A stretch of 64,000 nucleotides of DNA from Rhodohalobacter sulfatireducens (GTDB taxonomy: Bacteria; Bacteroidota; Rhodothermia; Balneolales; Balneolaceae). The stretch is from the NCBI RefSeq assembly GCF_022012475.1, contig NZ_JAKLWS010000002.1:62001-126000 (forward strand), in the 5' to 3' direction. A program made the position numbers and the translations under genes. Position 1 is the stretch's first letter. Each line of letters begins with the position of its first letter. The notes beneath the pieces were generated by a model. The model ran no database searches, was not told the origin of the DNA, and saw only the letters and a program-made list of their open reading frames with translations. Positions 3,700 to 15,799 of the stretch are shown here, one piece after another.

Positions 3700-5526
3700 T
3701 TAAGATGTTAGGTTACCGGATCCGTTGGTTATTTTCGATCGAATATATATCAATTTATCACCTTTCGTGGGATTATTAGGGTAGTCGATCGTAAAAGGAT
3801 GCAATTCATCATTCGACGTAATATGAAAGAGTGGAATTTTTCTTCCATCTTCATCATCTGCATTTTTAAAATCTTCAAATGTATAATCAGCTGTTAGTTC
3901 AACGGTCTGCAGATCATCTTCAGAACGGATTCGATTGGATAAATATTGGTAATTGAAGTCACGGTTGAAAAGAATTCGGCCGCTCAGATGGTCAGATACT
4001 TCTTCCTCATCTTCGTTGTGTTTATTGTTACCCGGAATTTGAAAAACATTAGATCGCCCCAGAATATCACTAAATCGAAGTGTAGCCAGTGAGTTGACTT
4101 CATCATTTGGAGTGAATGCCACCATTTTGCCGATACCGTCCAGGTTGATATCATCCAACACAAATTCAGATAAAACATTCCCGTGAAATGCATCTAAACC
4201 TTTGGATTTTGCCTGGGATGCATTGTTTCGGTTAGAATCGGCCATCAAAACTTTGATCCCTTCATCTTTCAGTTTTTTTGCGATTGAAATCGACCAATCC
4301 TTCGCGCCGAGAATAAGAAGCCCGTTGGGTACGGGTTTGGCAACACCCAATTTTCGCGCAACCCAGGCGGCCGGAAGTCCATAAATTGCCACGGTACAAA
4401 TTATGACAATAAATACGATAGGTACCAATTGGTTTGCCTGTTCAAACCCACTTTGGGTCAGGCTGATGGCAAAAATTGAGGAGATTGATGCCGCGACAAC
4501 TCCTCTCGGTGCCATCCATGAGAGAAACAGTTTCTCTTTCCAGTTGATATTTGAAAACAAGCTTGATGCATAAACGGATAATGGGCGGGCGACCAAAATG
4601 ATAATCCCCAGGAAAGCCAGAACCTTCCAGTTGAGGTTAGCCATCAATTCAGACAATTCAACCCGGGCGGCTAAAAGGATAAACAGCGCGGACAGCAAAA
4701 GCACTCTCAGGTTCTCTTTGAATTCAATGATGTGATGAATGTAAGCAGCTTTCTGATTGGCAAGTACAATCCCCATCAGTGTGGTAGCCCACAAACCTGA
4801 TTCATGTTGAAACTCGTTTGAAACAGTAAATACCAACACGACAATCATCAGGCTGACCGGGTTTTGCAGAAAATCGGGCAGCATATGTTTCTTCAGGATA
4901 ATATAGATAATTCCCGCCCCTGCAAGACCACATAGTGTTCCGAGAAAAATGGTTTTCACCACACTCATTAAAATGGCACTGGTGGCTGCAGTTACACCGG
5001 TTGTTAAGATTACTTCAAAAACAAGTACAGCGAGCATGGCACCGATGGGATCAATCACAATTCCTTCCCATTTTAAAATCGACCCGACCTGTCCAGAAGG
5101 CCGAACCTGTCTTAACAATGGAATGATGACTGTGGGGCCTGTAACAACCAGGATTGCACCCAGCAGAATAGAGAGTTCCACACCGAAATCTAATATCAGG
5201 TAGGATGAGAGTGATATCACAACCCAGGTGATGAGCACCCCGATACTGACAAGATTTCCAATGACTCCGCCGGAATCTTTAAGTTCAGAAAATCGAAGGC
5301 TCAGGCCACCCTCAAAAAGAATAATGGCAACGGATACAGATATGAAAGGAGTGAACAGATCACCCATCAATGCATCCGGATTAAGCAGGCCAAACACAGG
5401 CCCGGCAAGAATTCCAGCTATAAGCAGAAGGAGAATAGCAGGAAGTTTAAATCGCCAGGCGATCCATTGTGCACCAATTCCAAAAACAAAAATACTTGTT
5501 ATGGAAATAAGAAAATGTTCAGCCAT
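3700..5526 (-). CDS. CPA1-type Na+(K+)/H+ antiporter with RCK-like C-terminal tail
   Basis: Inner-membrane cation/proton antiporter, 608 residues. The first roughly 390 residues are a run of about 12 hydrophobic segments with the family's glycine-rich GPTVIIP-like and MAPRGVVAAS motifs. The rest is cytosolic: from about residue 400 a Rossmann-like stretch (LLILGAKDW, then a helix, then an acidic strand end MADSN) resembles a TrkA-N/RCK domain, although the classic GxGxxG is not kept. The C-terminal 100 residues are charged. It starts at ATG 5526, divergent from a small membrane-protein gene, and precedes the hydantoinase gene by 17 bp. It likely exports Na+ or K+; the ion is not determinable here. 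Confidence 0.85.
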   Translation of the reverse strand: MAEHFLISITSIFVFGIGAQWIAWRFKLPAILLLLIAGILAGPVFGLLNPDALMGDLFTPFISVSVAIILFEGGLSLRFSELKDSGGVIGNLVSIGVLITWVVISLSSYLILDFGVELSILLGAILVVTGPTVIIPLLRQVRPSGQVGSILKWEGIVIDPIGAMLAVLVFEVILTTGVTAATSAILMSVVKTIFLGTLCGLAGAGIIYIILKKHMLPDFLQNPVSLMIVVLVFTVSNEFQHESGLWATTLMGIVLANQKAAYIHHIIEFKENLRVLLLSALFILLAARVELSELMANLNWKVLAFLGIIILVARPLSVYASSLFSNINWKEKLFLSWMAPRGVVAASISSIFAISLTQSGFEQANQLVPIVFIVIICTVAIYGLPAAWVARKLGVAKPVPNGLLILGAKDWSISIAKKLKDEGIKVLMADSNRNNASQAKSKGLDAFHGNVLSEFVLDDINLDGIGKMVAFTPNDEVNSLATLRFSDILGRSNVFQIPGNNKHNEDEEEVSDHLSGRILFNRDFNYQYLSNRIRSEDDLQTVELTADYTFEDFKNADDEDGRKIPLFHITSNDELHPFTIDYPNNPTKGDKLIYIRSKITNGSGNLTS

Positions 5527-6073: not shown

Positions 6074-8188
6074 GTGCCGGAAAAATCCAAGAAGTTACAT
6101 AAACAGCTCGGAGCATTCGACGTTTTTTCAATTGCAACCGGTGCTATGTTTAGCTCTGGTCTCTTTTTGCTGCCCGGTATTGCTGCGGGAGAGACGGGCC
6201 CTTCAGTATTTCTCGCCTACCTGGTGTCTGGTTTATTAGTGATACCAACCATGCTCAGCAAAGCTGAACTGGCTACTGCTTTCCCGCGGGCAGGTGGTAC
6301 TTATTATATCATCGACCGTGCTCTTGGCCCGATGATGGGCAGTATCGGTGGTTTCGGCTCCTGGTTCTCACTGGTCTTCAAAAGTGCATTTGCGTTAATT
6401 GGAATGGGTGCCTACATCTCTATCTTTTTTGATGTACCAATCACACCCATTGCTATAATTCTAACGCTAACGTTTGGGGCACTGAATATTTTTGGTGCAA
6501 AAGAAACCAGCAGGCTGCAAAATATTTTGGTGATTATATTGCTTGCCATTATGGCATTTTACCTGGTTCAGGGATTCTCACATCTGTTTTCAATAGGTAT
6601 TCTCGATGTGCATCGCGAACAATTTACACCCTTCTTCACAAATGGATTTCAGGGCTTTTTTGGGACGGTGGGGATGGTGTTTGTCTCGTACGCGGGACTT
6701 ACTAAAGTGGTTAGCATGGCCGAGGAGGTTGAGGAACCCGACCGCAATATTCCACGCGGAATGTTCATATCTATTTTTGTGGCCATTTTTGTGTACGTAT
6801 CGGGCGTTTATTTGATGACAAGCGTACTTGATCCCACGGCATTCCGGGAAGATTTGACACCGGTTGCAACTGCGGGTGATGTATTTCTCACCTGGCTTCC
6901 CGGTGATAGCGGTTTGATATTAGTAGTTATTGCAGCCATCTCTGCATTTGCTTCCACAGGAAATGCGGGAATCATGTCGGCTTCGAGGTTTCCGCTGGCA
7001 ATGTCTCGCGATAAACTGGTTCACCCGATCTTTTCAAAAATAGGAAGATTTAGCACTCCAACCATTTCTGTTATTGTAACAACCGGCATGATGTTGTTGT
7101 TACTGCTCGTATTTAATGTTGATGAGGTTGCAAAGCTTGCCAGTTCATTCAAACTGTTGCTATTCGGGCTGTTAAATCTCGCAGTAATTGTGATGCGCGA
7201 GAGCAAAATCCAGGAATATGATCCGGGATATCAATCCTCATTCTATCCCTGGATGCAGATTCTGGGCATGCTCACCTCGGGAGTCCTGATTTTCGAAATG
7301 GGTACGGTTTCTATTGTTTTTACGGTAGTAGTGACGGTTCTGTCCGTAATTTGGTACTACTATTATGCCTACGGAAAAATTGATCGGCAGGGAGCTATCT
7401 ATCATGTGCATGAACGGCTCGGCCAACACAAAGATGGCGGATTGGAACGGGAGATGCGCAGAATTCTGCAGGAAAAAGGACTGAAGGAAGAAGATCCCTA
7501 TGAGTTGGTGATAAGCCGTGCCGATATCTGGGATCTGGAAGACCGGGATACTGGGTACTCAGAAATTTTAGACAAAGCCTGCCAAAATTTATCATCTAAA
7601 CTGGCGGTAAGCCGTGAAGATCTTTTTGAAGCGTTTAACAAAATGGATGAGTTCGGCATGATACCGATCGGAAATGGGGCTTCACTGAATCACACCCGAC
7701 TGGATATGGACATCAACCCGGAGATGTTTATTGTGAGAATCAGGGAGGGACTACAGCCTCAATCCGGCCAATCTTTCTCTGATGAAGATGGCGGCGGACA
7801 GGATCTGCATGCTTTCTTTTTCTTGGTGAGTTCTGAGAAGAAAGCCACGCAACACCTTCGTTTCCTGGCCCATATTGCTGAAATGATCGATAAGGAGGAT
7901 TTTCTTGAAAAATGGATTAATGCAAGAGACGAAGGTGAACTTCGAAAATTACTCTTGCGTGATGAGCGTTTTATTACAGTCAGAGTCCGTTCCGGGAACA
8001 GGTCCTCTCAATTGATCGGAAAGAAAATATCAGAAATTGACCTGCCCGGTGAAAGCCTGATTACCATTATCAAACGACGCGGTGGAATCGTTATTCCCCG
8101 TGGCTATACAGAGATCATGGAGAACGATGAGCTGTTTATCATCGGTGAGATAAAAGATATCGAGGGACTAAAGGAATTGAAGAATTAA
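6074..8188 (+). CDS. APC-family permease with PTS EIIA-like and RCK_C domains (paralog 1)
   Basis: Predicted amino acid or polyamine permease of the inner membrane, 704 residues. Residues 1-435 are an APC core of about 12 hydrophobic helices with the early FSIATGAMFSSG substrate-site helix. After a charged linker, about residues 485-630 resemble a PTS EIIA type 2 domain: GNGASLNHTR carries H540 where the phospho-histidine lies, and QHLRFLAHIAEMI carries H594 where the second active-site histidine lies. Residues 645-704 match RCK_C (TrkA-C), a ligand-binding fold that in other transporters binds nucleotides. GTG 6074 is chosen because it aligns with the GTG of paralog 3 (both read VPEP/VPEK-like). 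A 9-bp dyad lies upstream. Substrate unknown. Confidence 0.82.
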   Translation: MPEKSKKLHKQLGAFDVFSIATGAMFSSGLFLLPGIAAGETGPSVFLAYLVSGLLVIPTMLSKAELATAFPRAGGTYYIIDRALGPMMGSIGGFGSWFSLVFKSAFALIGMGAYISIFFDVPITPIAIILTLTFGALNIFGAKETSRLQNILVIILLAIMAFYLVQGFSHLFSIGILDVHREQFTPFFTNGFQGFFGTVGMVFVSYAGLTKVVSMAEEVEEPDRNIPRGMFISIFVAIFVYVSGVYLMTSVLDPTAFREDLTPVATAGDVFLTWLPGDSGLILVVIAAISAFASTGNAGIMSASRFPLAMSRDKLVHPIFSKIGRFSTPTISVIVTTGMMLLLLLVFNVDEVAKLASSFKLLLFGLLNLAVIVMRESKIQEYDPGYQSSFYPWMQILGMLTSGVLIFEMGTVSIVFTVVVTVLSVIWYYYYAYGKIDRQGAIYHVHERLGQHKDGGLEREMRRILQEKGLKEEDPYELVISRADIWDLEDRDTGYSEILDKACQNLSSKLAVSREDLFEAFNKMDEFGMIPIGNGASLNHTRLDMDINPEMFIVRIREGLQPQSGQSFSDEDGGGQDLHAFFFLVSSEKKATQHLRFLAHIAEMIDKEDFLEKWINARDEGELRKLLLRDERFITVRVRSGNRSSQLIGKKISEIDLPGESLITIIKRRGGIVIPRGYTEIMENDELFIIGEIKDIEGLKELKN

Positions 8189-8614
8189 ACCCGGAAACAA
8201 TGTAAACAAACCGGTTGCTATTCAACCGGTATTCAAGCTTCTGTAGATTAATTAAAATCTAAAAGATTGGAACTGTTTCCGTTGTTAATTAATTTTTTAG
8301 GATTCGCAGTGCAGGTAGTTGATCATAAAACTGTCTCATTATTTTCGCTAAATCACGTTGTATAAATTCAGTCGTGAGATAATGTAGATCACAAAGTAAT
8401 TCATTTTGATGGAACTGAAGGAAACGGACTCAACTAAACACAAGAATCCTTTTGCTTAGGATTTAATAAGTCGTATTCTTAATTGTAAATCCAACAAGTT
8501 AGTCATTCATCTTGAGGTTAAATTTTTTGAAATCCCGGGGGATTGTCAAAATTATCAATGGTTCAATTCTGAAGACCGTTTTTAAAAATTTAGGGACCAG
8601 AGCACATTTGGAAC
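8189..8614. other. non-coding gap with a short stem, 426 bp
   Basis: No convincing gene. A perfect 8-bp stem (ACCGGTTG at 8210-8217, CAACCGGT at 8223-8230, loop of 5) follows the permease stop by about 20 bp and may terminate its transcript, although no T-run follows. The remaining 380 bp are AT-rich and presumably hold the promoter of the CPA2 antiporter; I see no further strong repeat or RNA fold. Confidence 0.4.
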
Positions 8615-11092
8615 ATGAATGAAACACTAAATTTTACACTTCCTTTTTCAAATCCGGTGATGATTTTTGCATTGGTAATGCTGATCATCCTTTTGGCACC
8701 CATTTTAGTAAGAAAAATCAAAGTTCCCGGACTGGTAGGTATTATTTTAGCGGGTACTATCGTGGGGCCAAGTATCCTCGGTTTGCTGGAAAGAGACAGC
8801 ACCATTGAACTCTTAGGTACTGTTGGGTTGCTCTACCTGATGTTTATGGCCGGCCTTTCGATTGATCTTAACCGGTTTGAAAAGTTGAGAAATCAAAGTA
8901 TCGGGTTTGGTACTATTTCTTACATTTTTCCGGCTGTTGGTGCTTATTTCGCCGGTATTCATCTTCTGAATTACTCCGTTGAAAGCTCGTTGCTGCTGGG
9001 TGCTATTGTAGGTTCACATACTCTGCTTGCATACCCGATTATTGAACGGCTGGGTATTACTAAGAATACGGCTGTTACCATGTCGATGGGTGGGACGCTG
9101 GTTACGGATACGCTCTCTTTAGGGATTTTAGCTGTGATTGCCGGTACAGTTGGGGAGAACCAGGGGGCGGGTTACTGGACCGCTTTTGCAATTTCAATAG
9201 GTGTTTTTCTTACTGCTGCTATTATAATATTACCACGCCTTGGCCGATGGTTCTTCAGAAATATGAAGCATGATACCTATGTAGATTTTGTATTTATGAT
9301 GGCAGTTCTATTCTCCACGGCATTTCTTGCCGAACTGGCAGGTTTAGCGTCTATTATCGGGGCATTCATTGCCGGGCTGCTTTTGAACCGGCTGGTGCCT
9401 ATGAGTGGTACGCTGATGAACCGCATCCAGTTTGTGGGGAATTCCATGTTCATTCCCTTCTTCCTTATTTCTGTAGGTATGCTGGTAGATGTGCAGGTAC
9501 TGGCAAGTCTTGAAGTTTGGTTGATTGCAATTTTATTTACCGCGTTAGTTTTTGTTGGAAAAGGAGTTTCTTCATTAATTGTAAAGTTGATTAAGGGATT
9601 TTCGAATGCAGAAGGATATGTGATATTCGGTTTAACCACACCCCAATCTGCAGCTACTTTGGCAGTTACACTTTTGGGATTTGACCTCGGATTTTTTAAT
9701 CATACTGCCGTAAACGCTGTAGTCATTTTAATTCTTATCACTTGTTTGGTTGGGCCGTGGCTGGTGGAAAAATATGGCCGTGATGTTGCCATCCAGGAGG
9801 AAAAGAAACCGTATGAACCGTCAGAGTCTCCACAGCGAATTTTGGTTCCACTTGCCAACCCCGAAACATCAGATACGTTGATGGATATTGCATTTATGAT
9901 ACGTGATGAAAAATCGGCTCAGCCCGTATTTCCACTTACGGTGGCCAGGGATGGAAAAGATGTTGAGGCACAAGTTGCGAAAGGAGAAAAAATGTTGAGC
10001 CATGCCGTTATTCATGCTGCTGCTGCCGAAGTACCGGTAAATCCCGTTACCACGGTAGATTATAACATTGCAAATGGCATTGCCAGGGCGGTGAGTGAGA
10101 ATCTTGGATCTGTAGTCATTATCGGATGGAATGGAACAACCTCGACCAAAAGCCGGATATTTGGCAGTATTCTGGATCAACTCCTGCTGGAGATCGATGA
10201 AATGGTAATGGTTTCCAGGATATCAAAACCGATAAGCACGCATACTCGAATACTAATTGCTGTTCCTCCATTTGCCTCAACTGAAAGTGGATTTTCAGGG
10301 GCAATTCGGTCTTTAAAACTGATGGCCGAACAAACGGGTGATCAACTTGTATTTGTGATGACCAGCGAACGAAAAGAGTACGTTCAGAAAAGAATTGAAA
10401 AAGTAAAACCTAACTTGGAAACAGAGTTTCAAACCATTGAAAAATGGTCGGATCTGCCGTCTTGGCTGGACAAGACCGTCCACGATGATGATATATTCGT
10501 TTTAATAAGTGCAAGGGAGGGTTCACTCTCCTGGCGTCCGGCACTGGACCGCTTACCGCGTGTTGTAGCTCAGATATATCCCGAACTGAGCTTTATTACG
10601 GTTTATCCATCTGAAGCTGAAACAGATTCCGGCGGACTCAGTCAGGGTATGAATCTGAAACTGCTCGATCAGGACAGAATCTACCTGACCGATACCGGTG
10701 AGAATATTGAGCAAGTGCTTATTGAAATGCTGAAAACAGAAGTGAGTGTCGATAAAAAAGATATTGAACAGCTTGTTTTTAAACTGTTAAATAGCTCGAG
10801 AGATTATTCGCCAGAATTAATGTCGGGGGTTGTACTATATGACGCACATACTTCATTAGTGAGTAAACAAATGTTGATAAAGGGAATTGTAAGAAACGGA
10901 TTTCAAGTACCCAAAACAGCCAGTAAAGCACATGTTGTTTTACTGCTTCTGAGTCCGAAAGAAATGAGAGTCCGCGATCATCTAAAAGGGGTTAATACAG
11001 TTGCACGGCTAATTCGTCCCGGGGAGAGCCTTGAAAGACTGAAAAATGTCGATACAAAAGATGAGATTTACAGTATCTTATTTAAACAATAG
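8615..11092 (+). CDS. CPA2-type cation/H+ antiporter with two USP domains
   Basis: Inner-membrane monovalent cation:proton antiporter, 825 residues. Residues 1-390 form the roughly 13-helix Na+/H+ exchanger fold, with ILAGTIVGPSILG in the first re-entrant region and GGTLVTDTLSLGILA in the transport core. Two universal-stress-protein-like domains follow: one from about residue 404 (QRILVPLANPE) and one from about 541 (TRILIAVPPF). USP tails on CPA2 proteins are known and are thought to sense ATP or stress; no KefC-type TrkA-N domain is seen. It sits between EIIA-linked permeases 1 and 2, all on the plus strand, which suggests a shared role in ion or pH homeostasis. Confidence 0.85.
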   Translation: MNETLNFTLPFSNPVMIFALVMLIILLAPILVRKIKVPGLVGIILAGTIVGPSILGLLERDSTIELLGTVGLLYLMFMAGLSIDLNRFEKLRNQSIGFGTISYIFPAVGAYFAGIHLLNYSVESSLLLGAIVGSHTLLAYPIIERLGITKNTAVTMSMGGTLVTDTLSLGILAVIAGTVGENQGAGYWTAFAISIGVFLTAAIIILPRLGRWFFRNMKHDTYVDFVFMMAVLFSTAFLAELAGLASIIGAFIAGLLLNRLVPMSGTLMNRIQFVGNSMFIPFFLISVGMLVDVQVLASLEVWLIAILFTALVFVGKGVSSLIVKLIKGFSNAEGYVIFGLTTPQSAATLAVTLLGFDLGFFNHTAVNAVVILILITCLVGPWLVEKYGRDVAIQEEKKPYEPSESPQRILVPLANPETSDTLMDIAFMIRDEKSAQPVFPLTVARDGKDVEAQVAKGEKMLSHAVIHAAAAEVPVNPVTTVDYNIANGIARAVSENLGSVVIIGWNGTTSTKSRIFGSILDQLLLEIDEMVMVSRISKPISTHTRILIAVPPFASTESGFSGAIRSLKLMAEQTGDQLVFVMTSERKEYVQKRIEKVKPNLETEFQTIEKWSDLPSWLDKTVHDDDIFVLISAREGSLSWRPALDRLPRVVAQIYPELSFITVYPSEAETDSGGLSQGMNLKLLDQDRIYLTDTGENIEQVLIEMLKTEVSVDKKDIEQLVFKLLNSSRDYSPELMSGVVLYDAHTSLVSKQMLIKGIVRNGFQVPKTASKAHVVLLLLSPKEMRVRDHLKGVNTVARLIRPGESLERLKNVDTKDEIYSILFKQ

Positions 11093-11371
11093 CAATGCGG
11101 CCCGCCTGAGATAGACGATCAACGTATCAAATATGTATGAGTTAATTCTAATCCGGATTCTATCGGAAAAACAAATTTTTAATGAATGAGGATATTGAAG
11201 ATATTGTTGATTCCTTTTTACAGCACCCGATTATTTATTCATCCTGTATGCTAGCATATGTATAGAATGAATTTTGTTCTAACAAAACAGACGATATGTT
11301 AGTGTTTTTGATTTGCACTAAATAGTAATAAGAACAAGAATTAACTACATTCGAAGAAGAACAACTACTCA

Positions 11372-13483
11372 ATGAAGCATAAGAAGCTTAAGAAAGAACT
11401 GGGTCTGTGGGATGTTTTTTCGATTAGTACCGGAGCCATGTTTAGTTCTGGATTCTTTCTTCTTCCGGGTATTGCAGCTGCCGAAACAGGCCCCTCTGTA
11501 TTCCTTGCATATCTATTTGCAGGTATTTTAGTACTCCCGACCATGTTTAGTGTTTCGGAACTTGCAACTGCAATGCCCAAATCTGGAGGAACTTATTACT
11601 TTATAGATCGCAGCCTCGGGCCCATGATGGGAACTATCGGCGGGATAGGTTCATGGTTTGCCCTTGTATTAAAGAGTGCTTTTGCCCTGATAGGTATGGG
11701 CGCTTATATTGGCATTTTTTATGATCTGCCAATCACGTTTGTTGCCATAGTATTAACGATTTTGTTCGGAATCATAAATGTGATTGGTGCAAAAGAGACC
11801 ACTTTTTTGCAAAAAATTTTAGTAGCCTCTTTACTGGTAATTATGTTTTTCTACATTCTTCAAGGGGTTTTTGCAATCGCCTCTCTCGACTTTTTTGAGA
11901 TAACCAAAACACAGTTTCAGCCCTTTTTTATCGGGGGAGTAAATGGTATGCTCGCAACGATCGGTATGGTTTTTGTTTCATATGCTGGCTTAACGAAGGT
12001 TACAAGTGTAGCAGAGGAAGTTAAAAATCCAGACAGAAATATCCCCCTGGCAATGATATTATCTCTAATCGTTGCCGTATTTGTCTATGTAGTTGGAGTA
12101 TACATTATGGTTACGTTATCGGATCCGGTTCAATTTCGCTCCGACCTAACTCCAGTGGCTACAGTCGGTCAAATTTTCATGAATTGGCTACCCGGTTCTA
12201 CTGGATTGGTATTGATAGTTATTGCAGCAATTGCAGCGTTTGCATCTACCGGTAATGCGGGAATTATGTCTGCCTCACGTTATCCGATGGCGATGGCTCG
12301 AGACAAATTGATAGATAAGAACTATTCAGCAGTTCATGCAAGATTCGGCACTCCCACAGTCTCGATAATGGTAACTGTGTTAATGATGATTTTTATACTC
12401 CTGGTATTTGATGTGGAGTCGGTTGCTAAACTTGCCAGTGCTTTTCAGTTACTTCTTTTTGGACTCTTAAATCTTGCCGTTATTGTTATGCGGGAAAGTA
12501 AGATCGAGGGGTACGATCCCGGTTTCAAATCGCCCTTTTATCCTTGGTTTCATATAGCGGGCATGATTATTTCGACTCTTTTGATTCTTGAGATGGGTCT
12601 GATTTCTATTCTATTTACCAGCCTGATCGCTATTTTCAGTATAGGTTGGTATTTCTATTATGCCTATAACAAAGTGGAGAGAGAAGGAGCTATTTATCAT
12701 GTACATGCACGGTTAGGTGAACGCAGATATCACGGCCTGGAACATGAAATGAGAACCATTCTGAGGGAGAAAGGCTTACGCGAAGAAGATCCGTACGAGA
12801 AGGTGATTGGACGAGCGGTAGTCTTTGATTTTAGTCAAAGAATGCGATTTGAAGAAGTAACAGATATGGTTACCCAAGAACTCTCAGACAGGGTTAACTT
12901 CTCTAAGGAAGAATTGAGTAAAAGGTTTTTAAAAAACCTTGAAGAAGGCATTATTACTGTATCTCAGACAGCTGCTCTCAAACACATTAGGGTGGATAAG
13001 GACATTGAAACCGAGATAGCATTGGTAAGGTGTAAAGAAGGGTTCCAAATTGACAAATCGTATCTGGAAGACAATGAATCTGTTGAGGGGAATAAAATTT
13101 ATTGCCTTATCTATTTAATCAGTTCTACGAAGAATTCGGGCCAACATCTGCGAATACTTGCCCACCTTGCTGAAATGATTGATAACACAAATTTCACTGA
13201 AAGATTTCTTAACGCACAAGATATATCTGATATTCGGGAGATCCTTCTGCGTGACGAACACTTCATAAACATAACTTTAAAACAAGATTCCGAATCTAAA
13301 AGGATTATTGGAAAACAAATAAAAGAACTGGAAGATTTTCTCCCCGGAAAGAGCCTTATTACAATGGTAAAACGAAACGATGAGCTCATTTTCCCACATG
13401 GTGATACGGTGCTCCAGGAGAATGATATTCTTTCAATAATCGGTGAGAAAGGAGATATCGAGGAGTTAAAATCATTTCTTTAA
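11372..13483 (+). CDS. APC-family permease with PTS EIIA-like and RCK_C domains (paralog 2)
   Basis: 703 residues, same three-part layout as paralogs 1 and 3: APC membrane core (to about residue 435), EIIA-type-2-like domain, RCK_C tail. The two histidines expected in an EIIA active site are both present: H538 in ALKHIRV and H592 in GQHLRILAHLAEMI, 54 residues apart. The RCK_C part reads IGKQIKELEDF through NDILSIIG. Start is ATG 11372, preceded by the stretch GAATTAACTACAT that also occurs before paralog 3, showing that the duplicates kept their leaders. The 279-bp gap after the antiporter gives it its own promoter. Substrate unknown. Confidence 0.82.
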   Translation: MKHKKLKKELGLWDVFSISTGAMFSSGFFLLPGIAAAETGPSVFLAYLFAGILVLPTMFSVSELATAMPKSGGTYYFIDRSLGPMMGTIGGIGSWFALVLKSAFALIGMGAYIGIFYDLPITFVAIVLTILFGIINVIGAKETTFLQKILVASLLVIMFFYILQGVFAIASLDFFEITKTQFQPFFIGGVNGMLATIGMVFVSYAGLTKVTSVAEEVKNPDRNIPLAMILSLIVAVFVYVVGVYIMVTLSDPVQFRSDLTPVATVGQIFMNWLPGSTGLVLIVIAAIAAFASTGNAGIMSASRYPMAMARDKLIDKNYSAVHARFGTPTVSIMVTVLMMIFILLVFDVESVAKLASAFQLLLFGLLNLAVIVMRESKIEGYDPGFKSPFYPWFHIAGMIISTLLILEMGLISILFTSLIAIFSIGWYFYYAYNKVEREGAIYHVHARLGERRYHGLEHEMRTILREKGLREEDPYEKVIGRAVVFDFSQRMRFEEVTDMVTQELSDRVNFSKEELSKRFLKNLEEGIITVSQTAALKHIRVDKDIETEIALVRCKEGFQIDKSYLEDNESVEGNKIYCLIYLISSTKNSGQHLRILAHLAEMIDNTNFTERFLNAQDISDIREILLRDEHFINITLKQDSESKRIIGKQIKELEDFLPGKSLITMVKRNDELIFPHGDTVLQENDILSIIGEKGDIEELKSFL

Positions 13484-13699
13484 TTAAACTGTGAAATTGA
13501 CCGGAAAAAATCCCGCCTTTAATTTTCACTCTGATTCCCTTAAAGCTTTTGATAGCTTAAATTTATTAACAGTTAGAGACTTAAAATCTTCCATTATTTC
13601 AGTCCCCGGGAAGATCAACAACAGATTACAAACTCATTGATGTGGCAGTGATGCCGATTTATCAATGAATAATTTAAAAATTGAATTAACTACATATTT

Positions 13700-15799
13700 G
13701 TGCCTGAACCACTCAATAAACTAGATAAACAACTCGGTGCTTTTGACGTATTTTCGATAGCAACTGGTGCAATGTTCAGTTCCGGCTTCTTCCTTTTACC
13801 TGGACTGGCAGCAGCCCAAACGGGCCCCTCAGTAATTCTGGCTTATTTTGCAGCCGGGATTTTAATATTGCCTGCCATGTTTAGCGTAGCTGAACTATCT
13901 ACGGCAATGCCCAGGGCAGGAGGTGCGTATTATTTCATTGATAGAAGTTTAGGCCCATTGTTTGGGACGGTAGGAGGAATTGGGTCATGGTTAGCACTCA
14001 TTTTTAAAAGTGCATTTGCACTAATCGGAATGGGAGCATACATAGGTATTTTTATTGATCTGCCCATTACGCCAGTTGCGATAGTTCTTACAATAGTATT
14101 TGGTTTCACCAACATCGTGGGTGCTAAGGAAAGTAGTTGGCTTCAAAATGTGTTAGTATCAGTTCTTATAAGTATCCTTCTATTCTATGTATTTCAGGGG
14201 AGTTTTGCGGTTTTTAACCTGGATTTTTTTGAAATTATTCGGAGTGAATTTAGTCCATTTTTTCAGTTTGGTGCGCAGGGATTTTTTGCAACGATTGGTT
14301 TTGTATTTGTATCGTATGCAGGTTTGACGAAAGTAGCAAGTGTATCAGAGGAAGTGCGGGACCCAGACCGAAATATCCCGTTAGGCATGATGCTTTCTTT
14401 GGCAACTGCAACATTTATCTATGTTGTTGGAGTGTTTATTATGGTAATGCTGCTGGATCCTGAAGCCCTTCACTCAGATTTGACACCCGTGGCTACTGCC
14501 GGTGAAGTGTTTATGAACTGGTTGCCAGGAGAGCTTGGATTGATACTTATCGTTGTGGCAGCGATTGCAGCATTTGCATCTACTGCGAATGCAGGAATTA
14601 TGTCGGCTGCAAGATATCCGTTGGCGATGGCGCGAGATCAACTTATTCCAAAATATTTTTCTGAACTGGGTCGTTTCGGTACACCCACCCTTGCAACATT
14701 GGCAACAGTCGGTGCTATGATTGTGCTCATACTACTATTCAATGTAGAATCGGTTGCAAAGCTTGCCAGTGCATTTCAACTTCTACTTTTCGGGATTTTG
14801 AATGTATCTGTAATTGTCATGAGGGAGAGCGAAATTGAAGGGTATGACCCCGGTTTTAAATCCCCCTGGTATCCATATATGCAGGTTGCAGGAATTTTCG
14901 TTTCCGGGTTCCTGATTGCAGAAATGGGGTTTTTATCTATCTTATTTACGCTTGTTATAGCCACTATTAGTGTGATATGGTACTTCAGTTACGCACAGGA
15001 GAAAGTGAAACGGCAGGGGGCCATATATCACGTTCATGCGCGGCTTGGACAGTATCAATATGAAGGGCTTGAGAGAGAAATGCGGGGTATCATGCGTGAA
15101 AAAGGGTTGCGGAAAGAGGATCCGTATGAAAAAGCCATCAGCCGGTCTCTTGTGTTTGATATTGAAGATGAGGTAGTGCTCGAATCCGTTACAGATATGG
15201 TTTGTGCAATGATGGCTGAGAGAGCAAATACTAAAAAAGCACACCTGGTTAAGATGTTTTCAAAGGATCCAAGTGAAAATGTTATATCTGTAGGCCATTC
15301 AACCGCTCTAAAGCATGTACGGATTGAGAACGATATGGATACTGAGGTTGCTCTCGTCCGTCTAAAAAATGGTTTAAAAACAACTTCAAATTCCGGCGAT
15401 GAAGAGAAGTTCCATTGTTTGATTTATCTTGCAAGTTCGATTAACAAATCGGGTCAGCATCTACGAATCCTTGCTCACCTAGCAGAGATGATAGATAATA
15501 TTGACTTTGAGGAGCGCTGGTTAAATGCGAGCGATATTGCCGAACTTCGGGAAATCCTTCTCCGGGATGAACGATTTATCAGCATCACGGTGAAGAAAGG
15601 TTCTAAAACTGAAGAGATTATCGGGAAACAGATAAAGGAGTTGGATGAGATGCTTCCAGGAGAAAGCTTGATAACAATGGTGAAAAGGGAAGGTGATCTA
15701 ATATTTCCTCATGGAGATACAATACTCCAGGCTGGTGATGAACTTTCAATCATTGGCGAAAAGAAAGATATAGATGAGGTTAAAAAGCGCAGTGAATAA
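13700..15799 (+). CDS. APC-family permease with PTS EIIA-like and RCK_C domains (paralog 3)
   Basis: 699 residues and the closest relative of paralog 2. APC core to about residue 435, then an EIIA-like domain with H539 (ALKHVRI) and H587 (GQHLRILAHLAEMI), then RCK_C (IGKQIKELDEM to GDELSIIGE). Start is GTG 13700, supported by alignment with paralog 1, which also starts with GTG and reads the same first residues. A leader motif GAATTAACTACAT shared with paralog 2 lies about 20 bp upstream. The spacing between the histidines is six residues shorter than in the other two, all lost from the variable loop. Confidence 0.82.
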   Translation: MPEPLNKLDKQLGAFDVFSIATGAMFSSGFFLLPGLAAAQTGPSVILAYFAAGILILPAMFSVAELSTAMPRAGGAYYFIDRSLGPLFGTVGGIGSWLALIFKSAFALIGMGAYIGIFIDLPITPVAIVLTIVFGFTNIVGAKESSWLQNVLVSVLISILLFYVFQGSFAVFNLDFFEIIRSEFSPFFQFGAQGFFATIGFVFVSYAGLTKVASVSEEVRDPDRNIPLGMMLSLATATFIYVVGVFIMVMLLDPEALHSDLTPVATAGEVFMNWLPGELGLILIVVAAIAAFASTANAGIMSAARYPLAMARDQLIPKYFSELGRFGTPTLATLATVGAMIVLILLFNVESVAKLASAFQLLLFGILNVSVIVMRESEIEGYDPGFKSPWYPYMQVAGIFVSGFLIAEMGFLSILFTLVIATISVIWYFSYAQEKVKRQGAIYHVHARLGQYQYEGLEREMRGIMREKGLRKEDPYEKAISRSLVFDIEDEVVLESVTDMVCAMMAERANTKKAHLVKMFSKDPSENVISVGHSTALKHVRIENDMDTEVALVRLKNGLKTTSNSGDEEKFHCLIYLASSINKSGQHLRILAHLAEMIDNIDFEERWLNASDIAELREILLRDERFISITVKKGSKTEEIIGKQIKELDEMLPGESLITMVKREGDLIFPHGDTILQAGDELSIIGEKKDIDEVKKRSE

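Follow-up and report, generated by a model that had tools for sequence, protein, structure and literature searches.

Why should a permease carry, behind its membrane part, both an enzyme IIA (EIIA) domain of the phosphotransferase system (PTS) and an RCK_C domain? The question is raised by three permeases of the APC type encoded in a 64,000-nucleotide stretch of the Rhodohalobacter sulfatireducens genome (contig NZ_JAKLWS010000002.1, positions 62,001 to 126,000; this whole stretch is hereafter the window), in which positions 6074-15799 hold four transporter genes on the forward strand, namely the three permeases and, between permeases 1 and 2, a CPA2-type antiporter. By analogy with known systems, we propose that the domain, which resembles EIIA-Ntr, is phosphorylated in cis by HPr and gates the transporter together with RCK_C, a reading to which we give a probability of roughly 0.55.

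All three permeases have an AA_permease_2 membrane part (Pfam: 149-160 bits), a PTS_EIIA_2 domain (46.9-49.3 bits; Pfam cut-off 27), and a TrkA_C/RCK_C tail (42.7-48.6 bits; Pfam cut-off 27). The original prediction, made from the letters of the window, had described this order of domains, had placed the active-site histidines at H540/H594, H538/H592, and H539/H587, and had proposed a profile comparison with the PTS EIIA families; all domains score above the Pfam cut-offs, the comparison returned the PTS_EIIA_2 scores just given, and the six histidines stand exactly at those positions. In fold, the membrane part comes closest to GkApcT (5oqt), a cationic amino acid transporter homologue (24% identity), and by AA_permease profile and APC fold the permeases are secondary APC transporters. 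The membrane part is joined to EIIA by a conserved linker, whose residues R438, G440, A441, R448, G450, L457, E460, and E467 (permease 1 numbering) are kept in 89/89 relatives.

AlphaFold2 gave confident models both of the full-length permease 3 (mean pLDDT, the predicted local distance difference test, 87.8) and of the tail by itself (mean pLDDT 84.3). The top structural matches of the tail model are EIIA-Ntr of Neisseria (2a0j, Z = 18.8) and of E. coli (1a6j, Z = 18.0; VIA-align), with 146-149 residues superposed at a root mean square deviation of 2.2-2.5, and mannitol/fructose-type EIIA structures score below them. A better match to some other fold had been named beforehand as the outcome that would speak against the assignment; for the tail model, the EIIA-Ntr fold is the best (Z = 18-19). 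When the PDB was searched with a profile built from 37 sequences of the EIIA domain, all matches were EIIA-Ntr or EIIA structures (best E = 1.2e-12), and the identification of the domain as EIIA type 2, of the EIIA-Ntr subtype, is supported. In a profile alignment to 1a6j, the two permease histidine columns align with H73 and H120 of E. coli EIIA-Ntr (numbering counted off the printed alignment), H73 being the phospho-acceptor. Judged from the alignment to EIIA-Ntr structures, the two tail histidines probably face each other.

The permease family is widespread. One scan returned 80 loci, from Balneolota, Gemmatimonadota, Desulfuromonadia and other deltaproteobacterial groups, Planctomycetota, Calditrichota, Ignavibacteria, KSB1, Lentisphaerae, and others, and within the class to which the window belongs 143 of 244 genomes have a family match; the family-bearing genomes vary in completeness, and most are metagenome-assembled genomes (MAGs). 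The second histidine is invariant (89/89 aligned relatives), and the column of the first holds His in 84, Tyr in 4, and Phe in 1. With conservation of 89/89 and 84/89, the presence of both histidines is not due to chance. Among individual permeases, the phospho-His is replaced by Tyr, or absent, at loci L137, L138, L139, L140, and L141, and likewise at L067, L084, L088, and L090. The permease frame is broken into two pieces in two MAGs (L034:4723-6816 and L025:4721-6816), through either a sequencing error or a broken gene.

The R. sulfatireducens genome, for which a search for enzyme I (EI) and HPr genes had been suggested, has adjacent HPr and EI genes (HPr active site HARP) and also encodes a free PtsN with the motif AIPHGK and a diadenylate cyclase (DacA). 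EI was found in 71/80 family-bearing genomes (46/50 + 25/30), and HPr in 44 of the 50 tested. A profile search of the R. sulfatireducens genome did not find PTS_EIIC, the EIIC-type sugar permease, nor was it found in 35 of the 36 other genomes with the family that were examined; because EIIC was not found in 36/37 such genomes, the PTS in them likely has a regulatory role. Within the class, EI is present in 124/128 genomes with full EIIA and RCK_C tails and in 88/116 other genomes (Fisher P = 7e-7, uncorrected for kinship and with the restriction to full tails chosen after the data had been seen), but when all hits including antiporters are counted, the difference is not significant (129/143 vs. 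83/101, P = 0.08). We regard the association within the class as supportive only.

The same genes bear on a further possibility, that of group translocation, by which the fused EIIA would pass its phosphate to the substrate being transported or to an EIIB partner. EIIA domains normally transfer phosphate to EIIB, which favors it. The profile search of the R. sulfatireducens genome, with EIIB families outside its scope, found no EIIC, and the membrane part belongs to the APC secondary transporters, with GkApcT (5oqt) as a relative; we rejected group translocation as unlikely because no EIIC was detected, and hold it to be very improbable.

Under cis control by HPr, the regulatory PTS would act through EI and then HPr, and phosphorylated HPr would phosphorylate the first histidine (H540, H538, or H539). 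The phosphorylation state would alter the packing of EIIA against the linker, RCK_C, and the membrane part, and transport would be switched. RCK_C would add dimerization and a second input by a small ligand, possibly c-di-AMP, so that one polypeptide would do what E. coli does in trans with PtsN and YcgO. What we say of the direction of the phosphorylation effect, of the RCK_C ligand, and of the substrate we infer. A variant in trans makes the tail a docking site, to which free PtsN or HPr binds according to its own phosphorylation state, the tail histidines being secondary: PtsN does bind the C-terminal region of YcgO (PMC11808508), and the free PtsN of R. sulfatireducens has an intact AIPHGK. 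YcgO, however, suffices without an EIIA of its own, and once an EIIA is fused to the transporter, another is superfluous, so we think docking improbable.

A number of observations weigh against cis phosphorylation, and several of them concern the active site itself. At the column of EIIA-Ntr Arg57, 42/89 relatives have Gly, permease 1 has Met, and Arg is not among the five commonest residues, although R57 of E. coli is an active-site detail and not a requirement for membership in Pfam PTS_EIIA_2. Because this column is mostly Gly and other arginines are near-invariant (R555 in 83/89 relatives, R596 in 89/89), the active site is recognizable yet rebuilt. The window permeases have Asn or Lys in place of Pro before the first histidine, even though EI is present. 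The phospho-His is replaced by Tyr or Phe in certain paralogues, and one permease (L141), whose genome also encodes a normal paralogue (L161), lacks both histidines. In the EIIA of the CPA2 antiporter, the H73 column is Asp or Glu in 4/4 copies (the window and three relatives, Glu in one relative). The genomic linkage of EI to the permease may be plain synteny: in several Balneolaceae and in family f19 (L129, L134, L135, L130-L133), 12-21 kb separate the HPr-EI genes from the permease, a stretch that in Balneolaceae holds hisS, a variable island of glycosyltransferase genes, and a gatC-like gene. An EI-permease operon, which we had considered, was rejected on account of this distance and these unrelated genes.

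Genomes without EI offer a natural experiment, though a limited one. Nine family-bearing genomes lack EI, and seven of them form one clade of Gemmatimonadota. In all seven, the LPH at the first histidine has become LEH, the Pro being replaced by Glu, and relatives from EI-bearing genomes never have this Glu. When the clade is compared with its EI-bearing sister, identity is 78.6% in EIIA, and 90.8, 91.0, and 89.2% in the membrane part, linker, and RCK_C, respectively; fixed differences occupy 16/147 positions in EIIA vs. 7/530 elsewhere (Fisher P = 7e-7), in a comparison that amounts to one event. To be set against phosphorylation are the persistence of both histidines in this (recent) EI-less clade and the fact that neither branch alone accounts for the 16 EIIA differences (8 changed on the EI-less branch, 5 on that of the sister, 3 unassigned); therefore, they represent domain-specific change where EI differs and not simple decay or relaxation after EI loss. 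The EIIA domain may also have been replaced by recombination in these clades.

Five EI-less genomes of class family f8 carry the EIIA on an antiporter, with Leu, Phe, or His in the position of the Pro, and here too both histidines are kept; a relative that is not on the list of EI-bearing genomes (G225) retains LPH. Another genome (G222, locus L151) has its EI match within a 181-aa frame that a TAG interrupts (G222:C9:17025-17369), possibly a recent PTS loss, and its antiporter EIIA still has LPH. Since Balneolaceae, the window included, have replaced the Pro by Asn or Lys despite EI, and given the f8 cases, loss of the Pro is not cleanly tied to loss of EI.

These points lend themselves to a different explanation, namely that the EIIA-like domain is a nonphosphorylated scaffold that packs or dimerizes the cytosolic part and binds partners, its histidines being retained for the fold, for hydrogen bonding, or for metal; it would then resemble the EIIA-like cytosolic domain of eukaryotic SLC4 anion exchangers, which does its work without phosphohistidine. 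Histidines retained in EI-less clades, the lost Arg57 column, and the Tyr/Phe variants at the first histidine are what a scaffold would lead one to expect, and the cytosolic domains of band 3 and AE2 are among the structural matches (Z = 12-12.6). A scaffold fits less well with the co-occurrence of the family with EI, with the confinement of the Pro-to-Glu change to EI-less genomes, and with two active-site histidines that are near-invariant over many phyla. We consider it a serious possibility, if not the one that we would choose. Phosphorylation of the permease EIIA domain is what we infer from mixed evidence, mixed because the Arg57 column is not conserved, Asn or Lys precedes the histidine in the window permeases, histidines persist without EI, and the first histidine is lost in some paralogues. 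Control through the PTS, as first suggested for this locus, is plausible and partly supported.

The RCK_C tail would be the second input. It matches the RCK_C of S. aureus CpaA in sequence (5f29, E = 9.6e-6) and in fold (TMt 0.81-0.83), 3jxo and 5f29 being the structures matched. When the c-di-AMP contacts listed for KtrA and BusR (PMC7288161, PMC8517857) were mapped by eye onto the permease RCK_C, the hydrophobic positions and the pocket Pro were found to be kept (P675 in 88/88 relatives), and the Asp/Asn/Arg residues of the rim were kept only in part. A diadenylate cyclase is present in 34/37 family-bearing genomes, and c-di-AMP is a possible RCK_C ligand. The likeness to CpaA and KtrA of S. 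aureus lies in an RCK_C domain matched in sequence and fold and in the presence of the cyclase, and the difference from KtrA in the polar contact residues, which the permeases retain only partly.

The EIIA module is not confined to APC permeases. The CPA2 antiporter has a C-terminal PTS_EIIA_2 domain (37.2 bits, cut-off 27), a fourth EIIA in the interval that the original prediction had overlooked, in which a His lies two residues past the H73 column and the second active-site histidine is kept. The Asp or Glu at its phospho-His column resembles a lock in a phosphate-like state. With or without RCK_C, the module also occurs on Na_H_Exchanger/TrkA_N antiporters; since antiporters bear it besides permeases, it would be a regulatory unit common to several transporter types. 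Two antiporters have the order Na_H_Exchanger, TrkA_N, EIIA, TrkA_C (L123:1723-4293 and L124:1037-3670).

The features of the locus are collected in Table 1. The divergent TrkA_N antiporter-like gene listed last makes this a region rich in RCK-type transporters. A promoter scan found promoter-like sites to be no more frequent than in shuffled sequence.

Table 1. Transporter genes of the locus, with their cytosolic domains and active-site codons (positions in the window)
Feature	Position	Strand	Remark
APC permease 1, 704 aa	6074..8188	+	AA_permease_2, linker, EIIA-Ntr-like, RCK_C
Permease 1 conserved linker, residues 438-482	7385..7519	+	Between membrane part and EIIA; R-x-GAIYHV..GLE.E.R.I..EKGL..EDP
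Permease 1 EIIA-Ntr-like domain, residues 485-630	7526..7963	+	
Permease 1 H540 codon	7691..7693	+	Column of E. coli EIIA-Ntr H73
Permease 1 H594 codon	7853..7855	+	Column of E. coli EIIA-Ntr H120
Permease 1 RCK_C (TrkA_C) tail	7979..8185	+	
CPA2-type antiporter, 825 aa	8615..11092	+	Na_H_Exchanger, Usp, divergent EIIA
CPA2 EIIA-like domain	10661..11083	+	PTS_EIIA_2; Asp at H73 column, second His (H789) retained
APC permease 2, 703 aa	11372..13483	+	AA_permease_2, EIIA-Ntr-like, RCK_C
Permease 2 EIIA-Ntr-like domain	12818..13255	+	
Permease 2 H538 codon	12983..12985	+	
Permease 2 H592 codon	13145..13147	+	
Permease 2 RCK_C tail	13271..13480	+	
APC permease 3, 699 aa	13700..15799	+	AA_permease_2, EIIA-Ntr-like, RCK_C; full-length model
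Permease 3 EIIA-Ntr-like domain	15149..15568	+	
Permease 3 H539 codon	15314..15316	+	
Permease 3 H587 codon	15458..15460	+	
Permease 3 RCK_C tail	15587..15796	+	Sequence match to S. aureus CpaA RCK_C
K+/H+ antiporter-like protein with TrkA_N	3700..5526	-	Neighbor, outside the fusion family

Transporters with a fused EIIA are a known kind, and the APC, EIIA-Ntr, and RCK_C architecture is undescribed in the literature searched. The original prediction knew of no described function for this combination, and we likewise found no description of the fusion, or of EIIA with an antiporter or permease, in that literature, an absence that carries little weight with most subscription papers outside its coverage. 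If phosphorylation controls these permeases, they would be a second case of direct phosphorylation control besides the sugar transporter LacS, unrelated to it and far more widespread, and RCK_C would link the regulatory PTS to control of the K+/c-di-AMP type. Little is known of what the regulatory PTS acts on in Balneolota, Gemmatimonadota, Planctomycetota, Desulfuromonadia, and others, and the permeases are concrete candidates for its outputs there. We would go further only tentatively, and with some doubt: APC permeases and cation/proton antiporters might together form a widespread transporter class in which an EIIA-Ntr and RCK module integrates PTS phosphorylation with a nucleotide signal, for instance c-di-AMP. 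Where phyla possess EI and HPr without a sugar PTS permease, this class would be a main output of their regulatory PTS.

Several known systems resemble parts of this arrangement. In the SLC4 anion exchangers (band 3), too, a transporter is regulated from the cytosol by a domain with an EIIA-type fold (Z about 12), but these exchangers are eukaryotic and the domain is N-terminal. To our knowledge, the SLC4 domain is not phosphorylated on histidine. LacS of streptococci and lactobacilli (GPH family) is also a secondary transporter fused to an EIIA-type domain with a phospho-His; it is, however, a sugar transporter with a C-terminal EIIA-Glc (type 1), whereas here an APC permease bears EIIA-Ntr (type 2) and RCK_C, in bacteria without a detected EIIC. 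We know of no RCK_C in LacS. In LacS, HPr phosphorylates the fused EIIA domain and thereby changes transport, and according to one review LacS is the only bacterial transporter known to be controlled directly by phosphorylation (PMC10710835). A regulatory PTS (EI-R or EI-Ntr with HPr), with EI and HPr but no EIIC, is reported for Chlorobia, Planctomycetes, and Leptospira, groups like those that hold the permease family; the same source, whose data date from 2004, has no PTS in Bacteroidetes, and its available part does not name permeases of this type as outputs (PMC2405797). The other nearest precedent, besides LacS, is the pair PtsN and YcgO of E. coli, in which the K+/H+ antiporter YcgO is inhibited when unphosphorylated PtsN docks on its RCK-bearing tail, so that the phosphorylation state of an EIIA-Ntr governs an RCK-bearing transporter (PMC11808508). 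There, two separate proteins are involved, the transporter is a CPA1 antiporter, and docking is on the CorC domain of YcgO, whereas here EIIA lies inside the transporter.

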